From Pseudomonadota bacterium (lineage in GTDB: Bacteria > Pseudomonadota > Gammaproteobacteria > Burkholderiales > Ga0077523), in NCBI GenBank assembly GCA_963205165.1, contig CAUJJX010000037.1, forward strand, positions 1 through 46,052: DNA of 46,052 nt. The letters run 5' to 3'. The notes under the pieces are model-generated. The model ran no database searches. It was given only the letters and a program-made list of their open reading frames with translations, and was not told the origin of the DNA. The position numbers and the translations under genes were made by a program. This document shows, one piece after another, positions 4,407 through 39,504 of the stretch. Each line of letters begins with the position of its first letter. The stretch's first letter is position 1.

Positions 4407-5825
4407 TCAGGCAGTCTTGCGGCGACGCGACCGCATCAGGGCCAGCATGCCGAGGCCGGCGCCGAGCATGGCGTAGGTCTCGGGTTCCGGAACGGCGGTG
4501 ATCTGGATGGTGCGATCGATGCCGCTCGCCGGGTGCTGGATGTTCACGTACGCCTTGTTCGGATCGAGCTTGTCGAAGTACAGGCCCGTGAATTCCGAAC
4601 CGACGGTCCCGTTCGAAGCCCAGCGTGCCAGGCCTTCGCCGGCGTCGAGCAGGTCACCGTCCTTGTTGATGTCCTTCGCGAACCAGATGTCGTCGTCCAC
4701 GCCGCCGTTGCGGTCCTCGATGATGTAGATGTTGCCTTCGGCATCGATGGCGAGGTTGTCCGGGCTGCGCAGGCCGGAGCCCACCGCGAGGCCCGTCGCG
4801 AGGTCGATCGTCGACGTGTTGGCGAACAGCGACGACTGGCCGGTCGTCAGGTTGAACATGTAGACCTCGTTCGTCGTCGTCGTGGCGATGTACATGCGCT
4901 CGTCGCCGTTCGCCGCGACCTGGATCTCGAGGTCTTCCGGACGCTGGTAGTCGGTCCCGCCGACGAGGTTGGCCGCCGCACGACCGTCGAGGGCGAAGTT
5001 GCCGCCGCCGAGGTTGACCATCGCGCTGAACGTCGCGGCGTTGGCCGTGCCGGTGGTGGTCGTGATGGCTTCCCAGGTGATCGCGCCGACGGCGTTTGCG
5101 TTGCTGCCGCCGTCGACCTTCGCGACGAAGGTCTGGCCCTTGTCGAAGTACTGGTCACCGGTCGCGGCATTCGCGTTGGACGACACGTACTTGTAGATCG
5201 AGCCGCCGTTCAGTTCGTCGATGAAGTACATCGACTTCTGGCTGTCGAAGGCGAGGCCTTCGTGCGACACGCGCGGCACGACGTTGCGCTGGATGAAGTT
5301 GCCGCCGTTGGCAGCGGCCGTCGTCGAGTTGGTCACTTCGAACAGGCGACCCTTCTGGCTGCCCGTGCCCCACGATTCCTCGGCCGTGATGTAGGAACCC
5401 CAGGGCGTCCAGCGCGAAGCATCGCCGGCGACGAAGCCTTGCGTGCCCGGCGCGACGATCGTCACGGTGCGGGTGTTGTAGTTCGGATCCTGGAGGTCGA
5501 TGCGCTGCACGCCGCCCGTGCCCGTCTCGTAGGGCATGAGCAGGTAGCGGCCGGCGTCCGGGCCCGATTCGTTGGCCGTGATCATGTCCCAGTTGCCCGA
5601 GTTGGAACCGGGTACGAGCGTGTTCTGCGTGGCGCGGTCGGCGATCGTGAGCTGCGTGAAGTTCGGGCTCGACAGCGTCAGCGGGAACGCTTCGTTGGCC
5701 GTCGGGCCGGCGGACGCGGCGATCGGCGTGAAGTTGTCGAAGTACGTGGTCGCGGCGTTCGCGCCGGCGGCCATGGTCATGAGGGCGCCGGCGACGAGCG
5801 CGGCGAGGGGCTTGCGTTGGAACAT
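4407..5825 (-). CDS. DUF839/PhoX-like PEP-CTERM sorting domain protein
   Basis: Signal peptide MFQRKPLAALVAGALMTMAAGANA; ITAEESWG, SHEGLAFDSQ and SPDNLAIDAEGNIYIIEDRNGG motifs; C-terminal VPEPETYAMLGAGLGMLALMRSRRRK is a PEP-CTERM signal. Confidence 0.9.
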   Translation of the reverse strand: MFQRKPLAALVAGALMTMAAGANAATTYFDNFTPIAASAGPTANEAFPLTLSSPNFTQLTIADRATQNTLVPGSNSGNWDMITANESGPDAGRYLLMPYETGTGGVQRIDLQDPNYNTRTVTIVAPGTQGFVAGDASRWTPWGSYITAEESWGTGSQKGRLFEVTNSTTAAANGGNFIQRNVVPRVSHEGLAFDSQKSMYFIDELNGGSIYKYVSSNANAATGDQYFDKGQTFVAKVDGGSNANAVGAITWEAITTTTGTANAATFSAMVNLGGGNFALDGRAAANLVGGTDYQRPEDLEIQVAANGDERMYIATTTTNEVYMFNLTTGQSSLFANTSTIDLATGLAVGSGLRSPDNLAIDAEGNIYIIEDRNGGVDDDIWFAKDINKDGDLLDAGEGLARWASNGTVGSEFTGLYFDKLDPNKAYVNIQHPASGIDRTIQITAVPEPETYAMLGAGLGMLALMRSRRRKTA

Positions 5826-6115
5826 GGTGCGATCTCCGGGGGTCGGCATCCGGACAGCGACCGGATGCTCGGTTCGAGGGGCTGCGAGGGAACACGATCG
5901 AATCCGTGTGCTCTCCTCACGCCCTCAAGTTAGACCCCCGAATTTGCGTGCCCGTGACTCCGGCCGCCGCCGGCCCTGAGCCCATCGGACCATGCCGGCC
6001 GAATCTCCCGGCCGGCCGGCGGAGCGCAGGCGACCGGATCCGCCGGCCCGAGCGGGCAACGCAGGATGCTCCGACCACGGCGACCGACGCATTGCGCGTC
6101 GCGCCCGTCTCGCAT

Positions 6116-22589: not shown

Positions 22590-23705
22590 TCAGCGCGGCT
22601 TCGCGGCCGGTGCAACCGCCTGCGGACGCGGCGCTGCGACGGGTACCGCCGGGCGCGGTGCGGCAGGCGGGGCGGCCACCGGCCTGGGTGCGACGCGGGT
22701 CGCGTCGATTCCCTCGAAGGCCAGGCGACAGCGCACCCCCGCGAGGATGTCGCCCGTCGGATTCGGGAGTTCGAGCCGCACGCCGAAGGTCCCGCTGGCC
22801 GGATCGAGCACCCGGTCGAGCACGACGACCTTCGCCCGGGTCGGCGCCCCGCCGACGACGGCCGGCGTCACGATCGCGGACAGGCCGACCTTGACCTGCC
22901 GGTAGAGATCGGCAGGCAGCAGCGCCTCGACGTTGAGCACGTCGGTCTGCGCGAGCTTCATGATCGGCCGCCGGCCCACGCCGGTCTCGGTGACCTCGCC
23001 GGCGTTCAGGATGCGTTCCATCACGACGCCGTTGATCGGGCTGCGGATCGTCTTCAGCTGGATGATCGCCATCTGACGCCGGTACTCGATCTCGGCGAGC
23101 TTGCGGTTGTCCTCGGCCTCGACGAGCTCCGACTCGGCGATGAGCCGCTCGTTCAGCGCGTCGTCGTGCTGCTGCGCCGGGATGAAGTCCTTCCGGGCGA
23201 GTTCCTTCGCCCGCGCGAACTTGCGCTTGCTGAAATGCACCCGTGACTCGCCGGCACGGATCGCACCGTCCATCTGCGACCGGAACTTCGCGCCCTCGGC
23301 CAGCGCGCGCTCGACCGACGTGTCGATCAGTGCGATCTCCTGGCCCTTGCGGACGCTGCTGCCCCGGTCGACGGTGATGCGCTCGATGAGTCCTTCGATC
23401 GGGCTGCGGATCTCGAGGATCTGGCGCGGCTGGATGACGCAGTCGAAGTCGGCCGCAGCGGCCGTCGACGCGATACCGAGAAGCGCGATCGCCCCGAGGA
23501 CAGACCTTGCGGCGCCCCGCGCGAGGCTCCGCGCGAACGGCGACGCTGCCGTGCGATGCGCGAACAAGGTTCCCCTCGTCGAGCGATCGTTGCCGGATAT
23601 CCGCCCGGCATTCCGTGGCGCGGCGACCGCGCGGTCGAGTGCTTGCGCGGCGTCGACCGCGAGGGTCGGGCGCCGCTGGTGTTCGGTGGTGTATGTCGTC
23701 TTCAT
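22590..23705 (-). CDS. HlyD/RND-type periplasmic adaptor (membrane fusion protein)
   Basis: CVIQPRQILEIRSPIEGLIERITVDRGSSVRKGQEIALIDTSVE...coiled coil...TIRSPINGVVMERILNAGEVTE, with split lipoyl domain halves. ATG at 23705 proposed. Confidence 0.85.
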   Translation of the reverse strand: MKTTYTTEHQRRPTLAVDAAQALDRAVAAPRNAGRISGNDRSTRGTLFAHRTAASPFARSLARGAARSVLGAIALLGIASTAAAADFDCVIQPRQILEIRSPIEGLIERITVDRGSSVRKGQEIALIDTSVERALAEGAKFRSQMDGAIRAGESRVHFSKRKFARAKELARKDFIPAQQHDDALNERLIAESELVEAEDNRKLAEIEYRRQMAIIQLKTIRSPINGVVMERILNAGEVTETGVGRRPIMKLAQTDVLNVEALLPADLYRQVKVGLSAIVTPAVVGGAPTRAKVVVLDRVLDPASGTFGVRLELPNPTGDILAGVRCRLAFEGIDATRVAPRPVAAPPAAPRPAVPVAAPRPQAVAPAAKPR

Positions 23706-24153
23706 GTGGCGCGCGTATCGACCGTTTTCCCGCGATCTTGAGCCCCGGCCGTCGCAGGCCGACCACGCGTCCGGATGTCTGCACCAGACCGCCTCCGGGC
23801 GCCCCTGCCACCGCCCGACGGTCCGGGCGCGGCGTCGCGTGCACGGCCATCCGACGCGCAGTCCGGTCGTCGCATGCCGTGCCGCCACGGTCGATGGAAC
23901 CGTCCCGGCGGGCTGACGGCACGACCGACGTCATTCCGGACATCACCTCAAGTTCTTCCCCTCCGGACCCGTAAACGCGGGGGTCCTGTCGGGCGCTTCC
24001 CCGCGCACCGTCATCGCGTACCCCGGGGCCACGACCGACCCCGCGCCTCGACGCCTCGTGCGGACGCACGCGTGGGCCCGCCGCCGCGCGAGCGGCGCGC
24101 TCAAGCCGATGTCCCGACGACCGTAAGAACCGGCAGCACCACAGGAGCCCGCA

Positions 24154-25704
24154 TTGCCATTGCGCATCATCAGCGAGCGCCCGGAAGTTGCCGGGCCCGC
24201 ACCGCAGCCGACGACCGGCGCCGGACCGGCCCGACTGCGTCCGGCGCGTCCGGCGAATCCGTCTGCCGCTCCCGGCCAGCCGGTGCGCCAGTCCGCGACG
24301 CCTGAACCGCGTCCGGCGCAGGCGAAGTCCGCGGCCCCGCGCGGCGCCGCGACGCTGCTGCAGCTCCAGGGCACGCTGCTCGGGCACGACAACTTCCACG
24401 AAGCCGCGACGGCGTTCGCGACCCAGCTGGCCGACGTCCTCGGCGCGGCCCGCGTGGCCATCGGCTTCTTCGAGAGCGGTTACGCCGAGGTCGCCGCGGT
24501 CTCGCGCGAGGCGGACTTCGAGGGACGCAACGAACTGTTCCGCCTCGTCGGGACCGCGATGGACGAGGCCATCGAGCAGGGCGTGACGATCGTCCATCCC
24601 GGGCGACCCGGCGACAGGCCGCGGATCACGCTCGCCCACACCGAGCTCGCCCGGCACTGGGGCGGCGTCACGATCACCGTCCCGCTCGTCGTCGACGGAC
24701 GCCCCGTCGGTGCCATCGCGCTCGGCGGCGCGGACAACGTCGCCGCGAACGCCGAGGCCGTCGCGTTCTGCGAGCACCTCGCCTGCATCCTCGCGCCGAT
24801 CCTCGTGCTGAAGCGCGCGGCCGACCGGCGGTGGTACCAGCGCCTCGGGCAGGCCGTCTTCGACCTTCGCGAACGCGCCGGCCGCCCCGGCACGACCCGG
24901 ACGATGCTCGGCGCGACCGCGGTCGTGCTCGCCGCCGCCATCGCCCTCGTCGCCTGGCCCGTCGAGTACCGGGTCACGGCGCCCGCCCGCGTCGAGGGCG
25001 CGATCCAGCGCTCGCTCGTCGCGCCGGCGGACGGCTTCCTGAGGCAGATCCACGTGAAGCCCGGCGACGCCGTGAAGGCCGGACAGGTCCTCGTGGAGCT
25101 CGCCGACCAGGACCTGGAGCTCGAACGCCTCAAGTGGACCGCCGAGTTCGCGCAGCACCAGAACAGTTCGCGGTCCGCGCTGGCGCGGACGGAGCGCACG
25201 GAGTACGTCGTCGCCGTCGGCAAGGCGCAGGAGGCGAAGGCCCAGCTGGACCTCGTCGAGCAGGCGATCCAGCGCGCGAGCGTCCGGGCGCCGTTCGACG
25301 GCACCGTCATCAAGGGCGACCTCAGCCAGACGCTCGGGGCGCCGGTGCGCCGCGGCGACGTGCTGCTCACCGTCGCCCCGTCGAACGAGTTCCGGCTCGT
25401 CGTCGAAGTCGACGAGCGCGACATCGCCGACATCGCGCCGGGTGCGACGGGCGAAGTGCACCTCGCCGCCCTCCCCCGTGAATCCGTGCCGTTCCGGGTG
25501 ACGCGCGTGACGCCCGTCGCCACGAGCCGCGACGCCCGCAATTTCTACGAGATCGAGGGACGCCCGGGCGCCCTGCCGGCCGGGCTGCGTCCGGGGCTGC
25601 AGGGCGTCGCGAAGATTGGCGCCGACGACCGCACGCTCGCCTGGATCTGGACCCATCGCCTCGTCGACTGGGCACGCCTCGCCCTCTGGTCGCTCGGAGG
25701 CTGA
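24154..25704 (+). CDS. GAF-like domain + TM + HlyD-type adaptor fusion
   Basis: N-terminal soluble GAF-like region (LADVLGAARVAIGFFESGYAEVAAVS...VTITVPLVVDGRPVGAIALGGADN), TM (TMLGATAVVLAAAIALVAWPVEY), then HlyD barrel/lipoyl (RVEGAIQRSLVAPADGFLRQIHVKPGDAVKAGQVLVELADQDLELE...RAPFDGTVIKGDLSQTLG). Confidence 0.88.
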   Translation: MPLRIISERPEVAGPAPQPTTGAGPARLRPARPANPSAAPGQPVRQSATPEPRPAQAKSAAPRGAATLLQLQGTLLGHDNFHEAATAFATQLADVLGAARVAIGFFESGYAEVAAVSREADFEGRNELFRLVGTAMDEAIEQGVTIVHPGRPGDRPRITLAHTELARHWGGVTITVPLVVDGRPVGAIALGGADNVAANAEAVAFCEHLACILAPILVLKRAADRRWYQRLGQAVFDLRERAGRPGTTRTMLGATAVVLAAAIALVAWPVEYRVTAPARVEGAIQRSLVAPADGFLRQIHVKPGDAVKAGQVLVELADQDLELERLKWTAEFAQHQNSSRSALARTERTEYVVAVGKAQEAKAQLDLVEQAIQRASVRAPFDGTVIKGDLSQTLGAPVRRGDVLLTVAPSNEFRLVVEVDERDIADIAPGATGEVHLAALPRESVPFRVTRVTPVATSRDARNFYEIEGRPGALPAGLRPGLQGVAKIGADDRTLAWIWTHRLVDWARLALWSLGG

Positions 25705-25706
25705 CG

Positions 25707-27851
25707 ATGGCCGAGTCGCTGTTCAGCCCGCACTGGTACCGCTTCGCCGAATCCACGCCGCGCCTCCTCGCCGGCGTGACGGTGCGTCACCAGCACTACC
25801 GCGACGAAGCGTGGTACGTCCTGCTGAGCACGACGACGAGCCGGCAGTACCGGATCAACCGCCGCGCCTACCAGTTCATCGGACGCTGCGACGGCCACCT
25901 CACGGTCGAGCACATCTGGGACGATCTCCTCGAGACGATGCAGGACGAGGCACCGACCCAGGAGGAGATCATCGGGCTGCTGACGAGGCTCGCCGAGGAA
26001 GGTCTCGTCGACTACGGCGCGACTCCGAACTTCTCCGGGCAGCGCGGCCGGCTGCGCAAGCGCCGGCACCGCGGCTTCCCGAATCCGCTCGCCTTCCGCG
26101 TGCCGCTGGGCGATCCGTCGCGCCTGCTCGATCGCCTCGAGGTCGTCGCGAAGTGGATGTTCCACCCGGCCGCGCTCTGGCTCTGGATCGCGGTCGTCGG
26201 GCTCGCGACGATCTCCGCGGCCGCGCACTGGGACGCGCTGCGCCTCCACGCCGAGACCTGGATGGGCACGCCGCGCCACCTGTTCCTCGCGTGGCTCGCG
26301 TACCCGTTCATCAAGGCGCTGCACGAACTGGGGCACGCCCTCGCCGTGCGGCACTGGGGCGGCGCCGTGCACGACACCGGCGTCGGACTCTTCATGCTCA
26401 CCCCCGCGCCGTACGTCGACGCGTCGGCATCCGCCGGATTCCGACGCCGCCACCAGCGCGCCACCGTGGCCGCGATGGGCGTCGCCGTCGAACTGGCGCT
26501 CGCGGCCTTCGCGCTGTTCGTCTGGCTCGAGGTGCAACCCGGACTCGTGCGCGATCTCGCGTTCGTGACGATGATGATCGCGAGCGTCTCGACGCTGGCC
26601 TTCAACGGCAATCCGCTGATGACCTTCGACGCGTACCACGTGCTGTGCGACGCGCTCGACCTCCCCAATCTCGCCGCACGCAGCCGCCGCTGGTGGCAAC
26701 TGCAGCTCCAGCGCGCCGTGTTCGGCGCCGAACGCGTGGCACCGATGCACGTCACCGACGGCGAACGCGGCTGGCTGCTCGCGTACGCGCCGCTCTCGTG
26801 GTCGTGGCGGGTCGTCGTGGCCGCCGCGATCGTGCTGTGGGTCGGCCACTGGTCCGTGATCCTCGGCCTGCTCGTCGGCGCGTACTCGCTCGTCACGGTC
26901 GTGGCGCTGCCGATGATCGGCGCGGCCCGCGGACTCGTCCGTGCCGCCCCCGATGCCTCGCGCCGGTCGCGGGCCGCACGCATGGTCGGCGCGATCGGGC
27001 TCGCGATCGTCGTCGCGTGCTGCGCCGTGCCGCTGCCGTTCCGGACGTCCGCCTGGGGCATCGTCCAGCTGCCCGACCAGTCGCACGCACGCCCCGGCAC
27101 GGACGGATTCATCACCGCGTTCGCCGCGCGCGACGGAGACCGCGTGACGCCCGGACAACTGCTGCTGACGCTCCACGATCCCGCGCTGACCACCGAGCGC
27201 GACCGGCTGCAGAGCCGGCTGGTGGGCCTCCAGGCGAACCGCTTCGATGCGATGCTCGGCGACAACCGCGAGACCGGCAATCTGCAGGAGGAACTGCTGC
27301 GCGTGCGCGGTGAACTGGCGCAGGTCGAGTCCCGGATCGCGCAGCTGGAAGTGCGCAGCCACACGGCGGGCGTGTTCGTGATGCCTCGCCAGGACGACCT
27401 GCTCGGCACGTGGACGCAGCGCGGCGCGACGCTCGGCTACGTGCTCGACGGACGCACCGCCGGCGTGCGGGCGGCCGTGCCGGAAAGCGACGCAGCACTG
27501 ATCCGCGAGGGCCACCGGTCCATCGAGGTCCGGCTCGCGGAGTCCGCCGGCGACACCGTCGAGGCGCGCCTCGTGCGCGACGTGCCGGCGGCTGCGAACG
27601 AACTGCCGAGCCCCGCGCTCGGCGACCGCGGCGGCGGCCCGCACGTGACCGATCCGTCCGACGAGCACGGCGTCCGCACGACCGAACCCGTCGTCGTGAT
27701 CGATCTCGCGCTGCCGCCGGACCGCGTGCCCGAACGGGTCGGCGGCCGCGTGCGCGTGCGCTTCGACCACGGGATGGAACCGATCGCCGTGCAGGCGTAT
27801 CGCCGCCTCCGCCAGCTGTTCCTGCAGCATTTCAGTCCGACGGGCAGCTGA
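25707..27851 (+). CDS. PqqD-like + M50/site-2-protease-like multi-TM + C-terminal lipoyl/HlyD-like protein
   Basis: PqqD-like N-terminus (YVLLSTTTSRQYRINRRAYQFIGRCDGHLTVEHIWDDL), zinc motif HELGHALAVRHWGG, second motif FNGNPLMTFDAYHVL, and a C-terminal barrel-sandwich-like region (ARPGTDGFITAFAARDGDRVTPGQLLLTLHDPAL). Confidence 0.88.
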   Translation: MAESLFSPHWYRFAESTPRLLAGVTVRHQHYRDEAWYVLLSTTTSRQYRINRRAYQFIGRCDGHLTVEHIWDDLLETMQDEAPTQEEIIGLLTRLAEEGLVDYGATPNFSGQRGRLRKRRHRGFPNPLAFRVPLGDPSRLLDRLEVVAKWMFHPAALWLWIAVVGLATISAAAHWDALRLHAETWMGTPRHLFLAWLAYPFIKALHELGHALAVRHWGGAVHDTGVGLFMLTPAPYVDASASAGFRRRHQRATVAAMGVAVELALAAFALFVWLEVQPGLVRDLAFVTMMIASVSTLAFNGNPLMTFDAYHVLCDALDLPNLAARSRRWWQLQLQRAVFGAERVAPMHVTDGERGWLLAYAPLSWSWRVVVAAAIVLWVGHWSVILGLLVGAYSLVTVVALPMIGAARGLVRAAPDASRRSRAARMVGAIGLAIVVACCAVPLPFRTSAWGIVQLPDQSHARPGTDGFITAFAARDGDRVTPGQLLLTLHDPALTTERDRLQSRLVGLQANRFDAMLGDNRETGNLQEELLRVRGELAQVESRIAQLEVRSHTAGVFVMPRQDDLLGTWTQRGATLGYVLDGRTAGVRAAVPESDAALIREGHRSIEVRLAESAGDTVEARLVRDVPAAANELPSPALGDRGGGPHVTDPSDEHGVRTTEPVVVIDLALPPDRVPERVGGRVRVRFDHGMEPIAVQAYRRLRQLFLQHFSPTGS

Positions 27852-27855
27852 CCGC

Positions 27856-29865
27856 ATGGACATCCTTCACGCCGGCCGCACGCCGCGATCGGGACCGCTT
27901 CCGGTGCCGGGGATCCTGCTCGGCGCGTATCCGGAACGCCGCGGCGCCACGATCGACTGGCGCCACCGCGTGCTGGCCGCGGTGAGTGCGCTCGCTGCGC
28001 CACTGGATGCGTTCCGGCTCCGGCGCTACCGCCGCTTCGTCGACGCGGTCGGCGCGCTCGGACCGGCACTCGCGCGCCTCTCGCCCGCGGCGATCGACGA
28101 CCGCATCGAACGCCTGCGTGCCTCGCTGTCGCGATCCGGATTCGCGGAACCGCTGCTCGTCGAGGCATTCGCGCTGATCCGCCACGCGAGCGAACGCACG
28201 CTCGGCCGCCGTCCGTACGACACGCAGCTGATCGCCGCGCGCGTGATGTTCGACAAGCGGGTCGCCGAGATGGCGACCGGCGAAGGCAAGACGCTCGCGG
28301 CGGCCGTGTGCGCAGCGGCCGGCGCGCTCGCCGGTGTCCCGGTGCACGTCATCACCGTGAACGACTACCTCGTCGAACGCGACGCCGACCTGATGCGTCC
28401 GCTCTACGCTGCGCTCGGACTGACGGTCGGACACATCGCCGCGAAGCACGACCTCGTCACGCGGAAGCAGGCGTACGCGTGCGACATCACGTACTGCACG
28501 GCGCGCGACCTCGTGTTCGACTACCTGCGCGATCGCACGGTGCGCAATCCGCTGCTGTCCGAAGCACAGCGCCGTGCCGCGGAACTCGATGCGCCGGGCC
28601 GTGCCGCGCCGACGCTGCTGCGCGGCCTCTGCATGGCCGTCGTCGACGAAGCCGACAGCATCCTGCTCGACGAAGCGCGGATCCCGCTGATCCTGTCGAC
28701 GTCGAGTCCGGACACCGCACGCGCGTCGTTCCACGCACTCGCGCTCGACTTCGCGCGGCGGCTCGTGATCGGCCGCGACTGTGCCGTCGATCCGGAACGG
28801 CAGCACGTCGCGCTGACCGACGCCGGCCGCACCGCGCTCGGGGCCTTCGCCGCCAGCCAGCCCGGCGCGTGGCGCAACCGCCTGCATCGCGAGGAGGCGA
28901 CCTGCACCGCGCTGGCGGCGCTCCACACTTACCACCCGGACCGCCACTACCTCGTGCGCGACGGGAAGATCGTCATCATCGACGCCGCCACCGGACGTCT
29001 CGCGCCGGGCCGGATGTGGGGACGCGGCCTGCACCAGATGATCGAACTGAAGGAAGGCTGCAAGCCGAGCGCCGACCAGGTCACGGCGTCGCAGATCACG
29101 TATCAGCGCTTCTTCCGCCGCTACCTGCACCTCGGCGGGATGAGCGGCACTGTGAGCGAGGCGGGCGCCGAACTGGCCACGGTCTACGGCCTCGAAGTCG
29201 TGCGTGTGCCGCTGCGTCGGCCGAGCCGGCGCACGGTCTTCGCGACGCGGCTGTTCCGCGATCGGGCGACACAGTGGAACGCCGTGATCGCGCGGACGAT
29301 CGCGGTCGCCCGCACCGGACGTCCCGTGCTGATCGGCACGGACTCCGTCGCGGAATCCGAGGAACTCGCGGCGCACCTCGCGGCCGCGCGCGTGCCGCAC
29401 GCCGTGCTGAACGCACGCCACGACGCGACGGAAGCGCACGCCGTCGAACAGGCCGGTCGGGCCGGCCGGATCACCGTGACGACCAACATGGCCGGACGCG
29501 GCACCGACATCCCGCTCGCCCCCGGCGTCGCGGAGCGCGGCGGACTGCACGTGATCTGCTGCCAGCACAACGCGTCGCGCCGCATCGACCGCCAGTTGAT
29601 CGGACGCTGCGGCCGCCAGGGTGACCCCGGCAGCGCCGAGACGATGCTCGCGCTCGACAAGCCGCGGATCGCGCGCGTCGTGCCCCGCTGGATCACGACG
29701 TTCACCGGCCCCGACGGCTGGCAGCGCCCCGCGTGGCTCGTGTCGTTCGTCGTGCGGCTGCCGCAGTGGCTCGACGATCGCGCGCAGCGCCTCGAACGCC
29801 GCGAGGTGCTCGCCCGCGATCACCGCACGGAACAGAGCCACGCCGTCCCCGGAGGACTGGAATGA
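27856..29865 (+). CDS. Truncated SecA-like DEAD motor ATPase (accessory, ~669 aa)
   Basis: MATGEGKTLAAAV (Walker A), VHVITVNDYLVERDADLMRPLYAALGLTVG, VVDEADSILLDEARIPLILS, TTNMAGRGTDIPL, RRIDRQLIGRCGRQGDPGS. Ends soon after motif VI, so the rest of the HSD, the HWD and the Zn tail seen in SecA are missing. Confidence 0.92.
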   Translation: MDILHAGRTPRSGPLPVPGILLGAYPERRGATIDWRHRVLAAVSALAAPLDAFRLRRYRRFVDAVGALGPALARLSPAAIDDRIERLRASLSRSGFAEPLLVEAFALIRHASERTLGRRPYDTQLIAARVMFDKRVAEMATGEGKTLAAAVCAAAGALAGVPVHVITVNDYLVERDADLMRPLYAALGLTVGHIAAKHDLVTRKQAYACDITYCTARDLVFDYLRDRTVRNPLLSEAQRRAAELDAPGRAAPTLLRGLCMAVVDEADSILLDEARIPLILSTSSPDTARASFHALALDFARRLVIGRDCAVDPERQHVALTDAGRTALGAFAASQPGAWRNRLHREEATCTALAALHTYHPDRHYLVRDGKIVIIDAATGRLAPGRMWGRGLHQMIELKEGCKPSADQVTASQITYQRFFRRYLHLGGMSGTVSEAGAELATVYGLEVVRVPLRRPSRRTVFATRLFRDRATQWNAVIARTIAVARTGRPVLIGTDSVAESEELAAHLAAARVPHAVLNARHDATEAHAVEQAGRAGRITVTTNMAGRGTDIPLAPGVAERGGLHVICCQHNASRRIDRQLIGRCGRQGDPGSAETMLALDKPRIARVVPRWITTFTGPDGWQRPAWLVSFVVRLPQWLDDRAQRLERREVLARDHRTEQSHAVPGGLE

Positions 29866-29914: not shown

Positions 29915-32900
29915 ATGATCGGCTGGCTCCGGTCACGGTTCGGATCGCGCAGGCAGCAGCGCGCCGAGCTGCTCGTCGAGGAACTCGAGCCGCGCGTCCT
30001 GTACTCCGCGGACGCCGCCGTGCTGCTGTCGCCCGACGCATTCGCCCCCGTCGCGGAGGTCCGGTCGCTCGACGTGTACGCGCCGGTCGACGCCGAAGAC
30101 GATCCGACGTTCGACCCGGGCACGGACACCGACATCGCACCGCTCGACACGCGCGTCGCCGAGAACGCCGACACCACCGTCGCACCGTCCGGCGACATGG
30201 TCGCGACGACGGCCTCGATCGAGACACTGCCGCGCGTCGAGATCGTCTTCATCGACGATCGCGTCGAGGACCAGGACACCCTGCTCGCCGACCTCGCCGC
30301 GCGCGACGCAGGCGACACGGATATCGAGATCGTGCGGCTCGACGGCACGCGCGACGGCCTCGCACAGATCACGGCGGCACTCGACGGACGCTCCGACGTG
30401 TCCGCCATCCACCTCTTCAGCCACGGCACGGACGGCCAGCTGCGGCTCGGCAGCGGCTGGATCGACGAGTCGACGCTGATCAACCGCGCGTCCGAACTGG
30501 CGGCGTGGTCCGGCGCGCTGACGGCAGACGCCGACATCCTGCTCTACGCCTGCGACGTCGCGGCCGATGCGCAGGGCGAGTCGTTCGTGCGGCAGCTCGC
30601 TGCACTCACCGCAGCCGACGTGGCTGCGAGTGCGGACACGACGGGTCACGCGTCCCTCGGCGGCGACTGGAATCTCGAGTACGCCACCGGCACGGTCGAG
30701 TCGTCCGTGCTGCCCGCGCTGGCCACGCAAGAGGCCTGGGTCGACGTGCTGGCCGTGACATCGAACGGCACGGTGTCGTCCGCGCAGACGACGGGTGCGA
30801 CGAGCCTCACGTGGTCGCACACCGTGCTCGCCGGCAGCAACCGCGCGCTCTTCGTCGAACTCGCCATCGACAGTCTCGGCGCGTCGGTCACGAGCGTGAC
30901 GTACGGCGGCGTCGCCTTGACGCAGGTCGGTCGCGGCGCCGGCAACCACGCCGTCGAGATCTGGGTGCTGCTGTCGCCGGCGGAAGGCACCGCCAACGTC
31001 GTCGCGAGTTTCGGTGCGACGACGGCGGCCGCGGGCGGCGCGAGCACGTTCAACGGCGTGAGCCAGACGACCCCCAACGGAACCTTCGTGTCGGCGACCG
31101 GCACCGGCACCGACGCAACGATCGACGCGGCGAGCGCCGTCGGCGACATCGTGATCGACGTGCAGTACTGGCAGGGCGCGCCGTCGGGCGGTGCGCCCGG
31201 CGGCGGCCAGACACTGCAGTGGTGGCAGTCGAGCGGCGTGATGGTGGGCGGGTCCACGTCGGAGCCCGGCGCGACGACCGTCACGATGTCGGGCAGCTTC
31301 ACGAGTTCGACGCAGTGGGAGATCGGCGCGCTCTCGATCAAGGCGGCCGTCAATTCCGCACCGACGATCACCGATGGCGCGACCGTCACGCTGACGGGCA
31401 CGAACGAGAACACGACGTCGTCCGGGACAGCGGTCAGCGCACTCCTGACAGCGGCCGGGTACGCGGACGTCGACGGCGGATCGAGCGGCGTCGCGATCAC
31501 ATCGAAGGCCGGCAACGGCACGTGGCAGTACTCGACGGACGGCGTGACGTGGGCGGGCTTCGGCGCCGTGTCGTCGACGAATGCGCTGCTGCTCACGTCC
31601 ACCACGCAGGTCCGCTACATCCCCGACGCGAACAACGGCGAGACCGCGACCTTCGGCTTCAAGGCGTGGGACCAGACGTCCGGCACGGCGTCGACCAATG
31701 CCGTCGCGGCGTACGCGACCACGGCCAGCTCGGGCGGGACGACGGCGTTCTCCTCGGGTTCCGCCACGGGTTCGATGACCGTGAGCCCGGTCAACGACGC
31801 GCCGGTCCTGGCGGACACCGCACTCGCGCTGAACACCATCGAGGACGCGGGCGTGCCGTCCGGGGCCGTCGGCATCACGGTCGGCTCGATCACGGGCGGC
31901 ATCACCGACGTCGACACGTCCGCCGTCACGGGCATCGCGATCAGCGCGACGGACGAGACGAACGGCGTCTGGTACTACACGACCGACGGCGGCACGAACT
32001 GGACGACGGTCGGCGCGGTCACCGGCGGCTCGTCGCTGCTGCTCGAGGCGAATGCAGACACCCGGCTGTACTTCGCGCCGACCGGCGGGTACAGCGGAAC
32101 CTCGTCGAGCGCACTCACCTTCCGCGCGTGGGACCAATCCAGCGGCACGGCGGGCAGCAAGGTCAGCACGCTCGCCAACGGTGGCACGACCGCGTTCTCC
32201 TCGGCGACCGATGTCGTCGACGTGATCGTCGCCGCGAATGTCGCGCCGACCGCCGACGCGGGCGGCCCTTACACGATCGCCGAGGGTGCATCGCTCACCG
32301 TGGACGGCTCCGCGTCGACCGATCCGGAATCGCGGCCCCTCACGTACGCCTGGGACCTCGACAACGACGGCAACTACGGCGAGGTCGGCGAAGGGACGAC
32401 GTCCGGACCGACGATCTCGTGGGCGACGCTGCAATCGTTCGGCATCACCGACGATGGCACGTACACGATCGGGCTCCGCGTGAGCGATGGCGCGCTGACC
32501 GACACCGCGACGACGACACTGACCGTGACGAATACCGGACCGACGCTGTCGGTGACCGGCGGGTCATCGGCGATCGAGAACCACACGTACACGCTGTCCC
32601 TCGGCGCGACCGACCCGGGCGACGACACGATCACGAGCTGGACCATCGTGTGGGGCGACGGCACGGTCGAGACCGTCGTCGGCAATCCGGCGTCGGTCTC
32701 GCACACCTACGCCGTCCCCGGGTTCACGTACGACATCCTCGCGTCCGCCACCGACGAGGACGGCACGTTCACGAACGTCGATGCGCTCGTCTCGGACCTC
32801 GCGGACCACGCCGTGTATCGCCTCGACGGGACGACCGGTGCGTCGGAAGGCACGCTGCCGGTCAACGCCTCGCTGTCGCAGCCGATGGGCAGCACGTTCG

Positions 32901-35900
32901 GCCCCGATGGCCGGCTCTACGTCGGTGGCAACGCGTCCAACAACGTCGTCTGGCACGACCTGACAGCAGGCACCACGGGCGTCTTCGTGAGCGCCGGCAG
33001 CGGCGGACTGAACTCCGCGGGCGACGTGGCCTTCGGCGCCGACGGCAACCTGTACGTCGCGAGCTACGGCACGGACCAGGTCCTGCGCTACGACGGCACG
33101 ACCGGCGCGTTCATCGACGTGTTCATCGCGGGCGGCGTCAGCGCCCCCGCAGCGCTCGCCTTCGGTGCAGACGGCGATCTCTACGTCGGTGGCTGGTTCG
33201 ACGGCAAGGTCTGGCGGTTCGACGGCACGTCCGGCGCGCTCGTCGGGGGCGGCGCCTTCGTGACGCTCGCGGGCGGGTTCGGTGTCGGCGCCATCGCGTT
33301 CGGGCCGGACGGCAATCTGTACGTCGGCGACGGCAACTTCAACGACCTGATGAAGTACGACGGCACGACCGGCGCCTTCATCGCGAAGCTGGACGACGCC
33401 ATCTCGCCACGCGACATCACGATCGGGCCGGACGGCAACATCTACGTCTCGGATTTCAACACCGGCCACGTCGAGCGCTACGACGCCACGACCGGTGTGT
33501 CGCTCGGCAACTTCGACACCGGCGTGACGGGCATGTCGCAGGCGTGGGGCCTGTCGTTCACGCCGGATGTCCAGGTGACCGTCTCGGCCAACGTCGCGCC
33601 CACGATCACGAACCTCGACGGCGATGCGCTCGCGTACACCGAGGACGACGGCGCTGTCGTCATCGAACAGGGTGGCGACGCGCTCGTGACCGACATCGAC
33701 ACGTCCGACTTCGACGCGGCGACGCTCACCGTCTCGTTCGCCGCCGGATCGGACAGCGCCGAGGATGTCCTCGGCATCCGCCACCAGGGCATGGGCGCGG
33801 GCCAGATCGGCATCTCGGGTTCCGACATCGCGTACGGCGGCGTCGTCATCGGCTCGTTCACCGGCGGGTCGGGCGGCACGCCCCTCGTGGTCACGTTCAC
33901 CAGTGCGGCCGACGCCGCTGCCGTCGGCGCGGTCTTGAACAACGTCACGTACACGAACACCGACGGCGTCGCCCCGACGATCGGCGCGCGCACCGTCCGC
34001 TTCGTGCTGACCGACGGCGACGGCGGGACGAGTGCCGCGTCCGACGCGACCGTGACCGTCGGCCGACTCAACGACGCGCCCGTGCTGGTGGACGGCGCGA
34101 CCGTCGTGCTCACCGGCACGAACGAGAACACGACGAGTGGCGGCAGGCTCGTGAGCAGCCTCATCCTGCCGTCGATCTGGTCGGACGTCGACGACACCGG
34201 ACAGCGCGGTATCGCCGTCACGGGCCTGTCGGGCAACGGGACCTGGCAGTACTCGACCGACGGATCCACATGGACGACGTTCGGCAGCGTGTCGACGACG
34301 CACGCGCTGCTGCTCACGTCGACGACGCAGGTGCGCTACGTCCCCGACGGCGTCACGGCGGAGACCGCGACGTTCGACTACCGCGCGTGGGATCGCGCCA
34401 CCGGCACGGCATCGACCGCGACGGTGCCGGGCTACGCCGACGTCGGCACGTCCGGCGGTTCGACGGCGTACTCCACCGGCACCGCCACGGCGTCGATGAC
34501 GGTGGCGGCTGTGGACGACGCGCCGACGTTCTCCGCGGCGAGCGGCGTCGTGACGACGGACCTCACGACGCGCGACCACGGATACGCGGTGGCCGTGCAG
34601 CCGGACGGCAGGCTGCTCGTCGCGGGCTCCGGCCTTGGCGCGGCGTTCGACACGGACTTCTCGCTGACGCGATACAACGGCGACGGTTCGCTCGACACGA
34701 CATTCGCCGGCACCGGCAACGTGCTCACCGACTTCGGCGCGAGCGACGACACGGCACGCAGCGTCGTGGTCCAGCCCGACGGGAAGATCCTCGTCGGCGG
34801 CACCGCGACGATCGGCGGGCAGAGCGTCTTCGCGCTCGTGCGCTACAACACCGACGGTTCGCTCGACACGAGCTTCGGCGGCACGGGCAAGGTCACGACA
34901 TCGGTCGTCGTCGGCGTGAACTGCAACGCGACGAGCCTCGTCGTGCAGGACGGCGGGAAGATCGTGCTGGCCGGCACGTCGGGCAACGGCAGCACCGACA
35001 TCGCGCTCGTGCGCTACAACGCCGATGGTTCTCTCGACACGACCTTCAACGGCACCGGCACGGTCTCGATCGACTTCGGCGCGAGCTACGACACCGGACT
35101 GGCCGTCGCCCTCCAGGCGGACGGCAGGCTGCTCGTCGCGGGCAACACCAACGTGATCGGCTCGACGCACTTCTCCGTCGTCCGGGTGAACGACGACGGC
35201 ACGCTCGACACCGGCTTCGGCACGGCAGGCAAGGTGACACTCGCGATGGGCGGCGACAGTTCCGCGACCGCCATCGCCGTGCAGGCGGACGGCGGCATCG
35301 TCGTCGGCGGATACGCGCGCGGCGCCGTCTATTACGACTTCACGCTCGTGCGCCTGCAGGCCGACGGATCGCTCGACACGACCTTCAACGGCACCGGCAA
35401 GGTGACGACGGCAGTGAGTCCGACCTCGGACCAGATATACGCGCTCATCATCCAGGACGACGGCAGGATCGTCGCCACGGGCACGACGGAAGCCGCCGGC
35501 AACTACAACTTCGCCGTGGTCCGCTACGCCGCAGACGGCAGCCTCGACACGACGTTCAACGGCACGGGCATCGTGTCCACCGATGTCGGCCAGGCCCTCG
35601 ACACCGCATACGCACTCGTGCAGCAGGCCGATGGAAAACTCGTCGCGGTCGGGGATTCGATCACGTTCGGATTCGGTCCGCAGCCGAGCGTCACCGGGCT
35701 CGTCCGCTACACGACGACCGGTGCACTCGACACGCAGTTCGGCGCCGCCGCGACGACGCTCGACGCGACACCGATGTACGTCGAGAACGGCGCGGCCGTC
35801 GTGCTCGATCCCGACGCCGCGATCTTCGACACGGAGTTGTCGGCCGCGGACAACTTCGCCGGCGCGACACTCACGCTCGCGCGCACCGGCACCGCGAACG

Positions 35901-37960
35901 CCGACGACGTGTTCTCCGCGACCGGCACGCTGTCGGCCCTCACCGAAGGCGATCCGCTCGTCGTCGACGGCACGACCATCGGCACCATCACGACGAACAG
36001 CGGCGGCACGCTCCTGCTGACCTTCGACGCCGGCGCGACCGGGACGCTCGTGAACTCCGCGATGCGGCAGATTGCCTACGCGAACGGCAGCGATGCGCCG
36101 CCGGCGAGCGTGCAGATCGACTGGACCTTCGACGATGGCAACTCGGGCAGCCAGGGCACCGGTGGCACACTGACAGCGACGGGCAGCACGACGGTCACGA
36201 TCACGGCAGTCAACGACGCACCGTCCACGACGCCGGTCGTGCTGACCGCGATCTCCGAAGACAGCGGACCTCGCGTCATCACACAGGCCGAGCTGCTCGG
36301 CAATGTATCCGATGTCGATGGCCCGGCGCTGACGGCAACCGGCCTCGCGATCACCACCGGTGCAGGCCAGCTCGTCGACAACCTCGACGGCACCTGGACG
36401 TACACACCCGCCGCCGACGACGACACCTCGGTGGACTTCAGCTACACCATCACCGACGGCACCGATTCGGTGGCCGGCTCCGCATCGCTGGACATCACGC
36501 CGCTGAACGACGCGCCCGTGCTCGACAGCGCCGGAATCACCGTGTCCGAGGGCCAGTCCGTGACGCTGTCCGCAGCCGATTTCGGCATCACCGATCCGGA
36601 CAGCGCGGCATTCACGTTCACGCCGGGCAGCGTCAGCGGCGGGATCTTCCAGCTGGCCTCCGCTCCCGGCGTGTCGATCGCGTCGTTCACGAGCGCCCAG
36701 CTCGCTGGCGGACTCGTCCAGTTCGTCGACGACGGCAACGAGGTCGCACCGTCGTTCAGCGTGAACGTGAACGACGGCACGTCGAACTCGAACACGCTCG
36801 CGGCGACGATCGGTTACATGACCACCAACGACGCGCCGACCACGACACCCGTCACGCTCACCGCGATCGCCGAAGACAGCGGACCTCGCCTCATCACGCA
36901 GGCCGAGCTGCTCGCCAACGCATCCGACGTCGACGGCCCGGCGTTGACGGCAACAGGCCTCGCCATCACCTCCGGCGCGGGCAACCTCGTCGACAATCTC
37001 GACGGCACCTGGACCTACACGCCCGCCGCTGCCGACGAGAGCGCCGTCGTCTTCGGGTACACCGTCACCGACGGCACACTGTCCGTTGCAGGAACGGCAT
37101 CGATGGACATCACGCCGGCGCCGGCCGTCGCGACGCCGGTGACGGCCCCCGTCTATCCTGGCTGGACGGCGCCGCCGGCCATTGCCGCGCCCGCGACGAC
37201 GCCCGCGGATCTCCCGTCGGTCGCGATCGTCGCGGAGTCGCCGGCCCCATCCACCAGCCCCGCCGCGGAGACGACGATCGAGACCGATGCGGATTCGAGC
37301 GACGCCCTCGCCACGCCACGCGCGTCCGAAACGTCCCGGGCCAGGTCGGGCATCGGCGTCGGGCACTCGGGCAGCGGATCGACCGGCGGACCGGACGACT
37401 ACATCGATCGCGTCGTGGAGGACGCCATCGTGCTCGACCGACTCATGGCCGACGCAGCGGTCGTCGCCGCGGCCAATGCCGGCCCGGATGCGACCTTCCG
37501 GTACTCCGCGATCGGCGTGCCGGCGACGAACGCGCAGACGATCGCGCAGCTCCGGACGCTGCTGGCGAGTTTCGGCATGGACATCTCGGACACGCCTGCG
37601 CCGTCCACACCGTCGGGTGTGATCCGGATCGCTGCAGCGCCCGCATCGACCACCGATCTGCCCGAGGACGCGGGGCCGCAGATCGATCTCAGCGCGGCCG
37701 GCGCCGTCCGCCTGACGGGCGTGGCCATGTCGACCGGCGTCGTCCTGTGGGCGCTGCGCGGCGGCGGCCTGCTCGTGTCGCTGATCGGCGCGGTGCCGGC
37801 GTGGCGCAATCTCGACCCGCTCCCGGTGCTCGCGCCCGAGGAGGACAAGCCCGAGTGGATGGTCCAGGACGACGAGGAAGCCGAGCCGCGGGATCCCGCG
37901 AGCACGCGTCTCCGTGACGCCGCGCGCATCGCCTCGGCCGCTGCGGAGTTCGTGCTGTGA
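29915..37960 (+). CDS. Giant surface/adhesin-like protein (~2,681 aa): LEPR motif, DUF4347-like, cadherin-like, PKD, NHL-type propeller, delta-60 propeller, C-terminal TM
   Basis: MIGWLRSRFGSRRQQRAELLVEELEPRVLYSADAAVLL; DUF4347-like (IHLFSHGTDGQL...DILLYACDVA...GGDWNLEYATG); PKD (APTADAGGPYTIAEGASLTVDGSASTDPESRPLTYAWDLDNDG); 5-6 xGPDGNLYVGD blades; 7 delta-60-type DGSLDTTFNGTGxV repeats; C-terminal hydrophobic VAMSTGVVLWALRGGGLLVSLIGAVPAW. ATG at 29915 chosen over the 29621 ORF start, which lies inside the upstream gene. Confidence 0.92.
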   Translation: MIGWLRSRFGSRRQQRAELLVEELEPRVLYSADAAVLLSPDAFAPVAEVRSLDVYAPVDAEDDPTFDPGTDTDIAPLDTRVAENADTTVAPSGDMVATTASIETLPRVEIVFIDDRVEDQDTLLADLAARDAGDTDIEIVRLDGTRDGLAQITAALDGRSDVSAIHLFSHGTDGQLRLGSGWIDESTLINRASELAAWSGALTADADILLYACDVAADAQGESFVRQLAALTAADVAASADTTGHASLGGDWNLEYATGTVESSVLPALATQEAWVDVLAVTSNGTVSSAQTTGATSLTWSHTVLAGSNRALFVELAIDSLGASVTSVTYGGVALTQVGRGAGNHAVEIWVLLSPAEGTANVVASFGATTAAAGGASTFNGVSQTTPNGTFVSATGTGTDATIDAASAVGDIVIDVQYWQGAPSGGAPGGGQTLQWWQSSGVMVGGSTSEPGATTVTMSGSFTSSTQWEIGALSIKAAVNSAPTITDGATVTLTGTNENTTSSGTAVSALLTAAGYADVDGGSSGVAITSKAGNGTWQYSTDGVTWAGFGAVSSTNALLLTSTTQVRYIPDANNGETATFGFKAWDQTSGTASTNAVAAYATTASSGGTTAFSSGSATGSMTVSPVNDAPVLADTALALNTIEDAGVPSGAVGITVGSITGGITDVDTSAVTGIAISATDETNGVWYYTTDGGTNWTTVGAVTGGSSLLLEANADTRLYFAPTGGYSGTSSSALTFRAWDQSSGTAGSKVSTLANGGTTAFSSATDVVDVIVAANVAPTADAGGPYTIAEGASLTVDGSASTDPESRPLTYAWDLDNDGNYGEVGEGTTSGPTISWATLQSFGITDDGTYTIGLRVSDGALTDTATTTLTVTNTGPTLSVTGGSSAIENHTYTLSLGATDPGDDTITSWTIVWGDGTVETVVGNPASVSHTYAVPGFTYDILASATDEDGTFTNVDALVSDLADHAVYRLDGTTGASEGTLPVNASLSQPMGSTFGPDGRLYVGGNASNNVVWHDLTAGTTGVFVSAGSGGLNSAGDVAFGADGNLYVASYGTDQVLRYDGTTGAFIDVFIAGGVSAPAALAFGADGDLYVGGWFDGKVWRFDGTSGALVGGGAFVTLAGGFGVGAIAFGPDGNLYVGDGNFNDLMKYDGTTGAFIAKLDDAISPRDITIGPDGNIYVSDFNTGHVERYDATTGVSLGNFDTGVTGMSQAWGLSFTPDVQVTVSANVAPTITNLDGDALAYTEDDGAVVIEQGGDALVTDIDTSDFDAATLTVSFAAGSDSAEDVLGIRHQGMGAGQIGISGSDIAYGGVVIGSFTGGSGGTPLVVTFTSAADAAAVGAVLNNVTYTNTDGVAPTIGARTVRFVLTDGDGGTSAASDATVTVGRLNDAPVLVDGATVVLTGTNENTTSGGRLVSSLILPSIWSDVDDTGQRGIAVTGLSGNGTWQYSTDGSTWTTFGSVSTTHALLLTSTTQVRYVPDGVTAETATFDYRAWDRATGTASTATVPGYADVGTSGGSTAYSTGTATASMTVAAVDDAPTFSAASGVVTTDLTTRDHGYAVAVQPDGRLLVAGSGLGAAFDTDFSLTRYNGDGSLDTTFAGTGNVLTDFGASDDTARSVVVQPDGKILVGGTATIGGQSVFALVRYNTDGSLDTSFGGTGKVTTSVVVGVNCNATSLVVQDGGKIVLAGTSGNGSTDIALVRYNADGSLDTTFNGTGTVSIDFGASYDTGLAVALQADGRLLVAGNTNVIGSTHFSVVRVNDDGTLDTGFGTAGKVTLAMGGDSSATAIAVQADGGIVVGGYARGAVYYDFTLVRLQADGSLDTTFNGTGKVTTAVSPTSDQIYALIIQDDGRIVATGTTEAAGNYNFAVVRYAADGSLDTTFNGTGIVSTDVGQALDTAYALVQQADGKLVAVGDSITFGFGPQPSVTGLVRYTTTGALDTQFGAAATTLDATPMYVENGAAVVLDPDAAIFDTELSAADNFAGATLTLARTGTANADDVFSATGTLSALTEGDPLVVDGTTIGTITTNSGGTLLLTFDAGATGTLVNSAMRQIAYANGSDAPPASVQIDWTFDDGNSGSQGTGGTLTATGSTTVTITAVNDAPSTTPVVLTAISEDSGPRVITQAELLGNVSDVDGPALTATGLAITTGAGQLVDNLDGTWTYTPAADDDTSVDFSYTITDGTDSVAGSASLDITPLNDAPVLDSAGITVSEGQSVTLSAADFGITDPDSAAFTFTPGSVSGGIFQLASAPGVSIASFTSAQLAGGLVQFVDDGNEVAPSFSVNVNDGTSNSNTLAATIGYMTTNDAPTTTPVTLTAIAEDSGPRLITQAELLANASDVDGPALTATGLAITSGAGNLVDNLDGTWTYTPAAADESAVVFGYTVTDGTLSVAGTASMDITPAPAVATPVTAPVYPGWTAPPAIAAPATTPADLPSVAIVAESPAPSTSPAAETTIETDADSSDALATPRASETSRARSGIGVGHSGSGSTGGPDDYIDRVVEDAIVLDRLMADAAVVAAANAGPDATFRYSAIGVPATNAQTIAQLRTLLASFGMDISDTPAPSTPSGVIRIAAAPASTTDLPEDAGPQIDLSAAGAVRLTGVAMSTGVVLWALRGGGLLVSLIGAVPAWRNLDPLPVLAPEEDKPEWMVQDDEEAEPRDPASTRLRDAARIASAAAEFVL
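36211..36501 (+). repeat. Intragenic 291-bp cadherin-like direct repeat, copy 1
   Basis: NDAPSTTPVVLTAISEDSGPRVITQAELLGNVSDVDGPALTATGLAIT...; nearly identical DNA recurs at 36826. Confidence 0.85.
36826..37116 (+). repeat. Intragenic 291-bp cadherin-like direct repeat, copy 2
   Basis: NDAPTTTPVTLTAIAEDSGPRLITQAELLANASDVDGPALTATGLAIT...; same length as copy 1. Confidence 0.85.
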
Positions 37961-39504
37961 TCGCCGCGCTCCGCCGTCGCTTCCCGAGGCTCGTCGCGAG
38001 CCCCGCCGTCCGGATCTCGATGGGCATGAGTTCGCTGATCGTCGCGATCCTGCTCGCGATGGATCTCGCGTTCGGGCTGCTGCCCGACCACACGCTGCTC
38101 GTGCGCAAGACGCGGGAGCGCATCGCGGAGAACCTGGCGATCGAGGCAGCGTCGCTGATGGGCTCGGGCGACGTGCTGCGGCTGGGACTCGCGTTCCGCG
38201 AGCAGGTCGCGCGGGACGGGACGATCCTGTCCGCCACGGTGCGACGCAGCGACGGACAGGTCGTCACGCACGCAGGCGAGCAAACGGCGGCGTCCGACGC
38301 GCAGGCCGACAGCGCGGCGCGCGTCGATCACTTTCAGGTGCCGCTCGTGTCGAACGGTCAGCCGTGGGGCGTGCTCGACGTGCGCTTCGAGAGCGCTGCG
38401 CCGCGCGGCCTGCGCGGGTGGCTCACGCATCCGCCGGTGCTCACGGTGCTCGCGCTCGGCTTCGGCAGCTTCGTCGCGTTCTTCCTGTACATGCGCCGCG
38501 TGCTCGCGCACCTCGATCCGTCGACCGTGATCCCGGATCGTGTCCGGAGCGCCTTCGACGTGTTCTCGGGCGGCGTGATGATCGTCGACACGCAGAGCCG
38601 CGTGATGCTGGCGAACGCCGCCCTGCGCGGATGGATGGGCGCCACCGACACCGAGAAGCTGCTGGGCCGCGCCGTCGATTCGATCCCGTGGTTCGCGCGG
38701 GCGCTGCCCGCCGACCGGGATGCGCATCCGTGGGTCCGGACGGTCGCATCGGGGATGCCCGTCGAGGGCGAGCACATCGAGTTCGACCGGAACACGGCGT
38801 CGGCGCTCAAGGTCATCGCGAACACCGCGCCGATCCTGGATGGCGTCGGCGTGGTCCGGGGCTGCCTCGTCACCTTCGACAACGTGACGCATCTCGACAT
38901 CCTGAACACGCAGCTGCTGGCGTCGATGACCGAGCTGACGCAGACGAAGGAGGAGGTCGAGCGGAAGAACGAGGAGCTGCTGCGCCTCGCGACGCGCGAT
39001 CCGCTGACCGGCTGCCTGAACCGGCGCGCGCTGTTCGAGAAGCTCGACCAGCTGTTCGTCGACGCACGCACGGCCGGCACGCCGCTCTGCTGCATCATGA
39101 CCGACATCGATCACTTCAAGTCCTTCAACGACCGGCACGGTCATGCCGTCGGCGACCAGGTGCTGCAGTCGACGTCGCACAAGCTCGGTGGCGGCCTGCG
39201 CGACATGGACCTGCTGGCGCGCTACGGCGGCGAGGAGTTCTGCATCATCCTGCCGGGCACGACGCTGGCGCAGGCCTGCGCCGTCGCCGAACGCCTGCGC
39301 AGCGACGTCGAGCTGCTGGCCGGTGCATCGATCCGGTCGACCCGCGATCTGAAGGTGACGTCGAGCTTCGGTGTCGCGGTGCTGACGGCGGACATCGTCG
39401 ATCCCGCCGAACTGATAGACCAGGCCGACCAGGCGCTCTACGCAGCGAAGAAGGGCGGACGGAACTGCGTGCGGACGTACGAGGCGATCGCCGAGGCTTC
39501 GTGA
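37957..39504 (+). CDS. Membrane diguanylate cyclase (two TMs, PAS-like, GGEEF)
   Basis: TM segments near the N-terminus and at VLTVLALGFGSFVAFFLYM; DPLTGCLNRRALFEKL...IMTDIDHFKSFNDRHGHAVGDQVL...RDMDLLARYGGEEF. GTG start overlaps the stop codon of the giant gene. Confidence 0.92.
   Translation: MIAALRRRFPRLVASPAVRISMGMSSLIVAILLAMDLAFGLLPDHTLLVRKTRERIAENLAIEAASLMGSGDVLRLGLAFREQVARDGTILSATVRRSDGQVVTHAGEQTAASDAQADSAARVDHFQVPLVSNGQPWGVLDVRFESAAPRGLRGWLTHPPVLTVLALGFGSFVAFFLYMRRVLAHLDPSTVIPDRVRSAFDVFSGGVMIVDTQSRVMLANAALRGWMGATDTEKLLGRAVDSIPWFARALPADRDAHPWVRTVASGMPVEGEHIEFDRNTASALKVIANTAPILDGVGVVRGCLVTFDNVTHLDILNTQLLASMTELTQTKEEVERKNEELLRLATRDPLTGCLNRRALFEKLDQLFVDARTAGTPLCCIMTDIDHFKSFNDRHGHAVGDQVLQSTSHKLGGGLRDMDLLARYGGEEFCIILPGTTLAQACAVAERLRSDVELLAGASIRSTRDLKVTSSFGVAVLTADIVDPAELIDQADQALYAAKKGGRNCVRTYEAIAEAS

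Follow-up and report, generated by a model that had tools for sequence, protein, structure and literature searches.

The window analysed here, a stretch of 46,052 nucleotides, encodes a giant protein with a short N-terminal tag. Comparison across genomes gives good support to the view that this tag belongs with a protein that fuses an RRE (PqqD-like) domain, an M50 metalloprotease domain, and an HlyD domain. With a probability of roughly 0.6, we read the tag as a leader that would be recognized by the RRE of an HlyD/TolC-type exporter of giant proteins, with a SecA-like motor in one of two subtypes (subtype A). Giants with this N-terminus are common in the phylum surveyed, with open frames of up to about 19,000 aa, and their sequences leave their exit route from the cell unexplained. 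The tag offers a simple handle for finding such clients, and the partner genes point to a testable machine. Each of the components (HlyD/TolC conduits, RREs, and M50 proteases) has been described before; their combination and its tag appear to be new, and a search of the open-access full-text literature found nothing on the tag-partner pairing. If this reading is true, RRE domains, which are familiar from peptide natural products, double as receptors in protein export.

The tagged giant and its operon

The giant (2,680 aa; 29915..37960, strand +; defined by translation and Pfam domains) starts at the ATG at 29915. This assignment is backed by a GGGAG a few bases 5' of the ATG and by the same N-terminus in two relatives, L063 (MKGWWQRFTGRAREELLVEELSPRILFSADAAALL) and L064 (MRRWWQRFTGKAREELLVEELAPRILFSADAAALL), which match the giant nearly residue for residue but have LSPR or LAPR in place of LEPR. 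The tag (29915..30028, strand +) consists of a basic start followed by LLVEELEPRVLYSADAA. Within it, LEPR occupies residues 24-27 (29984-29995), and the core motif LEPRVLYSADAA (29984..30019, strand +) has a serine at position 8, which in the comparison of tag-partner pairs is the subtype A state. The NCBIfam model NF012209 (LEPR-XLL) matches residues 19-38 of the 2,680 with 20.5 bits where the curated cut-off is 17 (E = 3.6e-5 over the whole six-frame genome); the giant is thus a family member, a large protein with an above-cut-off match near its N-terminus. An earlier note on this DNA had placed a LEPR motif behind a basic start here, and both its frame and its residues proved exact. NF012209 names a sequence family that shares this motif; what the present comparison adds is the connection of the motif with the RRE-M50-HlyD protein and the two subtypes of matched tag and partner. 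Across the tag-partner paired set, the arginine is the sole invariant residue of the motif, and in 33 clients the 20 residues preceding the motif form a basic stretch with a mean net charge of +3.2. The DNA pattern was discarded as evidence for a tag because it is too frequent (4 occurrences in the window, 1.9 expected). The same note had claimed that a Sec h-region is absent, which was borne out: none is seen in the first 90 residues, where mean hydropathy over 19 residues peaks at 1.19, at the motif itself. The giant therefore lacks the hydrophobic core that follows the basic N-terminus of a Sec signal peptide.

The giant lies in an apparent operon on the + strand that encodes, in order, a GAF-HlyD adaptor (24154..25704; domain and neighborhood comparison, start codon uncertain), the RRE(PqqD)-M50-HlyD fusion (714 aa), a short SecA-like ATPase (669 aa), the giant, and a PAS-GGDEF protein (37957..39504). 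The two partners named in the earlier note, PqqD-like/M50 and SecA-like, are thus in place, at 25707-27851 and 27856-29865. A second, divergent adaptor of the HlyD/RND type is annotated at 22590..23888 on the - strand, and its true start is probably near 23708. HlyD adaptors are therefore present, and no TolC gene was found adjoining this system. Elsewhere in the same genome, another contig (G000:C93, locus L080) carries a second subtype A system, and five further LEPR matches lie away from the window (contigs C130, C335, C138, C146, and C118). A different, C-terminal sorting system is represented in the window by the PEP-CTERM sorting signal of a PhoX-like protein encoded at 4410-5849 on the - strand.

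Behind the tag, the giant has a DUF4347 domain (30242..30751, strand +), then PKD, DUF5122, and cadherin-like repeats, a single C-terminal membrane segment (VVLWALRGGGLLVSLIGAV; 37739..37795, strand +; located by hydropathy and found again in relatives), and an acidic tail. The DUF4347 domain, assigned by a domain match, has a predicted caspase-like fold: its structure model (pLDDT 92.6) finds the T6SS protein Tce1 (9qpe) as the best PDB match, followed by caspases, and it contains a nearly invariant histidine and an invariant cysteine. The giant may process itself through this domain after export; the domain is present in some clients only. The C-terminal membrane segment (WALRGGGLLVSL...PAWRNLDPLPVL; 37739-37957) is also found in the giants of L063, L066, L093, L096, and L100, each of which adjoins a GGDEF gene. 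In the window, the start of the PAS-GGDEF gene overlaps the giant's stop, and this protein goes with this class of giants. A link from surface sensing to c-di-GMP through the membrane segment and the GGDEF neighbor is possible.

The RRE-M50-HlyD protein and its co-occurrence with the tag

The proposed tag receptor (25707..27851, strand +) was delineated by profile matches and alignment. Its RRE/PqqD-like domain (25707..26021, strand +) is matched by the Pfam PqqD model PF05402 with 27.5 bits against a cut-off of 23.4; this model finds 16 of 25 members of the family and leaves 9 undetected. The domain has the PqqD-like fold and is modeled as an RRE of the leader-binding type: core pLDDT exceeds 90, and its best matches in the PDB are RREs, mostly with leader peptides (probability 1.0, with modest E-values of 0.007-0.05), including TbiB1-TbiA and a lasso-peptide B1 protein, both solved with the leader peptide. 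The M50 domain, detected by Pfam in 25/25 members, has the HExxH and NxxP...D motifs of site-2 proteases. The HELGH motif lies at 26322..26336 (strand +), and H206, E207, H210, N300, P303, and D308 are invariant in all 25 sequences, which cover both subtypes. Residues 20-406 match the model of the daptide RRE-M50 protease (NF041824) with an E-value of 4e-40, and the score of 138 bits is well below the equivalog cut-off of 300. The daptide protease MpaP was reported to remove the leader of its precursor (PMC10036551). Like MpaP/DapP, the window protein joins an RRE to a membrane protease of the M50 type; unlike them, it has an extra HlyD domain, giant proteins as clients, and no daptide-type modifying enzymes alongside. 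By analogy, cleavage of the leader by the M50 domain is plausible.

To what extent the tag and this protein occur together was assessed in 299 genomes drawn from one phylum, with the tag detected by the NF012209 profile and the partner by an M50 profile. LEPR matches at or above the cut-off were found in 81 genomes and the full-length M50 protein in 84, with both in 68 (n = 299; p 4e-38, for related genomes that are not independent). When LEPR matches are restricted to frames of at least 600 aa, 61 of 65 genomes have the full-length M50 protein (n = 299; Fisher p 4e-39), and when they are restricted to scores of at least 20 bits, 46 of 48 do (n = 299). Counted by family, the tag is accompanied by the M50 protein in 25/25 families (p 1e-14). 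The association signal sits in the tag and not in the giant's body, because genomes with the control body domain Cadherin_5 have the M50 protein in only 67 of 166 cases (odds ratio 4.6), and inside these Cadherin_5 genomes the odds ratio of the LEPR-M50 association is 82. The earlier note had held that the pairing would fail if LEPR proteins occurred routinely in genomes lacking the partners; for the M50 protein, the 61 of 65 genomes show no such pattern.

The four long-frame exceptions are of different kinds. In G216, the client adjoins an HlyD gene on a 2.7-kb contig, which amounts to a contig break; the G243 genome is 57% complete; and the match in G086 is near the cut-off (17.2 bits). In G266 (86% complete), a good LEPR protein stands without any M50 match, and this is the one strong unexplained case. 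Other LEPR-only genomes were set aside as counter-examples, since their matches are mostly near the cut-off and in short frames. Conversely, 16 genomes have the M50 protein and no LEPR match above the cut-off, and the tag variants LEQRMMFDAA, LEARMMFDGA, and LEQRIAFDAA account for some of them.

The two genes are usually close: where a LEPR match and an M50 gene occur on one contig (51 matches), the distance is no more than 12 kb in 44 cases. Several clients are far from the M50 gene, and thus some systems probably serve clients in trans. As for the earlier suggestion that the tag is a recognition and processing signal paired with the PqqD-like/M50 protein, its recognition part is supported by co-occurrence, adjacency, subtype covariation (see below), and the RRE-like fold, and its processing part is suggested by the intact M50 active-site residues and the daptide analogy.

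Two subtypes with matching tags

The partner systems fall into two subtypes. Subtype A, to which the window belongs, includes the short SecA-like ATPase, and its clients carry LEPRxxxS[A/G][D/E]. Its gene order is GAF-HlyD, M50, SecA-like, HlyD: in 24 of 26 subtype A pairs the M50 gene lies between the GAF-HlyD and SecA-like genes, and the second HlyD gene is usually nearby. Subtype B (gene order TolC, HlyD, HlyD, M50) is without a SecA-like gene, its operon usually includes TolC, and its clients carry LEPRxxxD[G/A]A. At position 8 of the motif, 25 of 26 subtype A pairs have S or N and all 30 subtype B pairs have D; for these 56 neighboring pairs, gathered by hand, the p-value of 5e-15 is overstated because relatives are not independent, and it is the near-lack of exceptions that counts. 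The one exception is the A-type system of G323, which has D at position 8.

Both subtypes are also found on plasmids, subtype A in Methylosinus, Mesorhizobium, Pseudosulfitobacter, and a Rhodobacteraceae bacterium and subtype B in Azospirillum, Cupriavidus metallidurans CH34, and Citrobacter. Where the N-termini of plasmid clients could be read, they carry the expected tag (LEPRVLLNAD, LEPRLLLSAD, and FEPRVLLSAD for subtype A; LEPRFMFDAA, LEPRLLYDAA, and LESRQLFDGA for subtype B). Most subtype B operons encode TolC, as does the subtype A operon of Methylosinus.

The SecA-like protein of the window (27856..29865, strand +), recognized by profile matches and comparison with SecA, shares with SecA and SecA2 the motor domains, the preprotein cross-linking domain, and the ATPase motifs. 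In contrast to them, it is only 669 aa long and is without most of the helical scaffold, the wing, and the C-tail that complete a SecA translocase. It scores 503 bits against the SecA model, below the cut-off of 814, and a canonical SecA is encoded elsewhere in the same genome. The helical scaffold holds the two-helix finger of SecA. Because homology to B. subtilis SecA covers residues 15-545 only, most of this scaffold is missing, and a mode of pushing different from that of SecA is likely.

The earlier note had named the SecA-like protein together with the M50 protein as a pair of partners, which cannot be maintained for the tag in general: only canonical SecA was found in 20 genomes in which no subtype A M50 protein was seen (18 typed by neighborhood and 2 by profile score), most of which have LEPR giants. 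The two kinds of SecA separate by score: intact short SecA-like proteins reach 648-1037 bits, and no canonical SecA exceeds 563. Two subtype A-like M50 genes, L188 (G240) and L066 (G027:C2), have no SecA-like neighbor; a genome-wide search of G240 found no short SecA-like protein, and its client tag is LEPRLLFSAT. In many subtype A systems (L164, L165, L166, L177, L178, and L183-L187), the gene next to GAF-HlyD codes for a small DUF3467 protein, which was not seen in the window's operon.

The subtype B operon has no ATPase that would account for its energy supply. The idea that a type I ABC transporter is the hidden motor of subtype B was considered and rejected, as matches were scattered and not conserved.

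The proposed export route and its alternatives

In the route that we propose, the N-terminal leader would mark giants for an envelope-spanning export machine composed of the RRE-M50-HlyD protein in the inner membrane, additional adaptors of the HlyD type, and an outer-membrane channel of the TolC type, which in the genome studied here would also be a TolC. The RRE domain would physically bind the basic stretch and LEPRxxxSAD, and export would start N-terminus first through the HlyD/TolC conduit. In subtype A, the short SecA-like ATPase would act as the motor and supply the energy, and the M50 domain may cleave the leader. We hold more tentatively to the full picture of an undescribed secretion system, in which a SecA-like protein would push giants with an RRE-read LEPR leader via M50/HlyD into TolC, the leader would be removed within the membrane, a motorless subtype would use a cognate leader with D for S, and planctomycete giants would carry the same signal. 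The differing tag residues of the two subtypes permit a specificity swap.

Such a machine would have HlyD-type adaptors, TolC, and very large surface-protein clients in common with type I and other tripartite exporters. It differs from them in having an M50 protease and a SecA-like ATPase instead of a conserved ABC, RND, or MFS transporter, and in having an N-terminal and not a C-terminal tag. The giant's operon contains no ABC exporter that could serve as the inner-membrane part of a type I system. Similarly, the window shares with LapA/LapD/LapG a giant adhesin-like protein, a proposed route of the HlyD/TolC type, a c-di-GMP enzyme nearby, and a cysteine-protease-like fold; however, this fold is part of the giant, neither LapG nor LapD was seen, and the N-terminus is a short tag.

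An alternative, which we regard as unlikely, is that the tag is a LapA-type retention anchor: the giant would be exported by another route via a C-terminal signal, and the tag would hold it in the HlyD/TolC channel until release. The HlyD and TolC partners and the c-di-GMP enzyme adjoining the giant fit this, as does a Vibrio LEPR giant reported to have RTX C-terminal domains (PMC10868602), an architecture that would go with a type I signal at the C-terminus. A short C-terminal motif common to subtype B clients can be read in the same way; it was seen in clients encoded directly before TolC (L084, L088, L168, L169, L238, L239, L243, and L246), in forms such as GFSRQLRQ, SFTDQIRQ, AFSRQVAQ, and PFSEQVND. 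However, across 21 loci of subtype A and 26 of subtype B, no ABC family recurs as a conserved neighbor, and RTX repeats are essentially absent from the 14 complete client frames that were examined. A partner that combines an RRE of the leader-binding type with a membrane protease also fits better with recognition inside the cell. The Ig-like proteins RSP and RSP2 of IncHI plasmids were considered as experimentally known clients and rejected, since their export was reported to be of type IV.

It is still less probable that giants and operons are merely inherited together as blocks, with no role of the N-terminus in export. Client and partner genes do usually adjoin, and the relatives compared are not independent; yet the tag is kept while the bodies differ, clients also occur away from the operon, position 8 tracks the partner subtype in 55 of 56 pairs, and Cadherin_5 bodies track the partner far less closely. 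Least probable of all is a leader for maturation only, with the RRE-M50 protein maturing the giant's N-terminus as in peptide natural products and export proceeding elsewhere: the daptide leader protease is the best family match of the M50 part and some members carry the NCBI name "PqqD family peptide modification chaperone," but the same protein has an HlyD domain, further HlyD and often TolC are encoded alongside, and no peptide-modifying enzyme is conserved in the loci.

Outside the phylum surveyed, a planctomycete giant encoded on plasmid PALBO1 of Paludisphaera borealis (L257) starts with RLRRSALEWLEARTLLAVLP, which resembles the subtype A tag.
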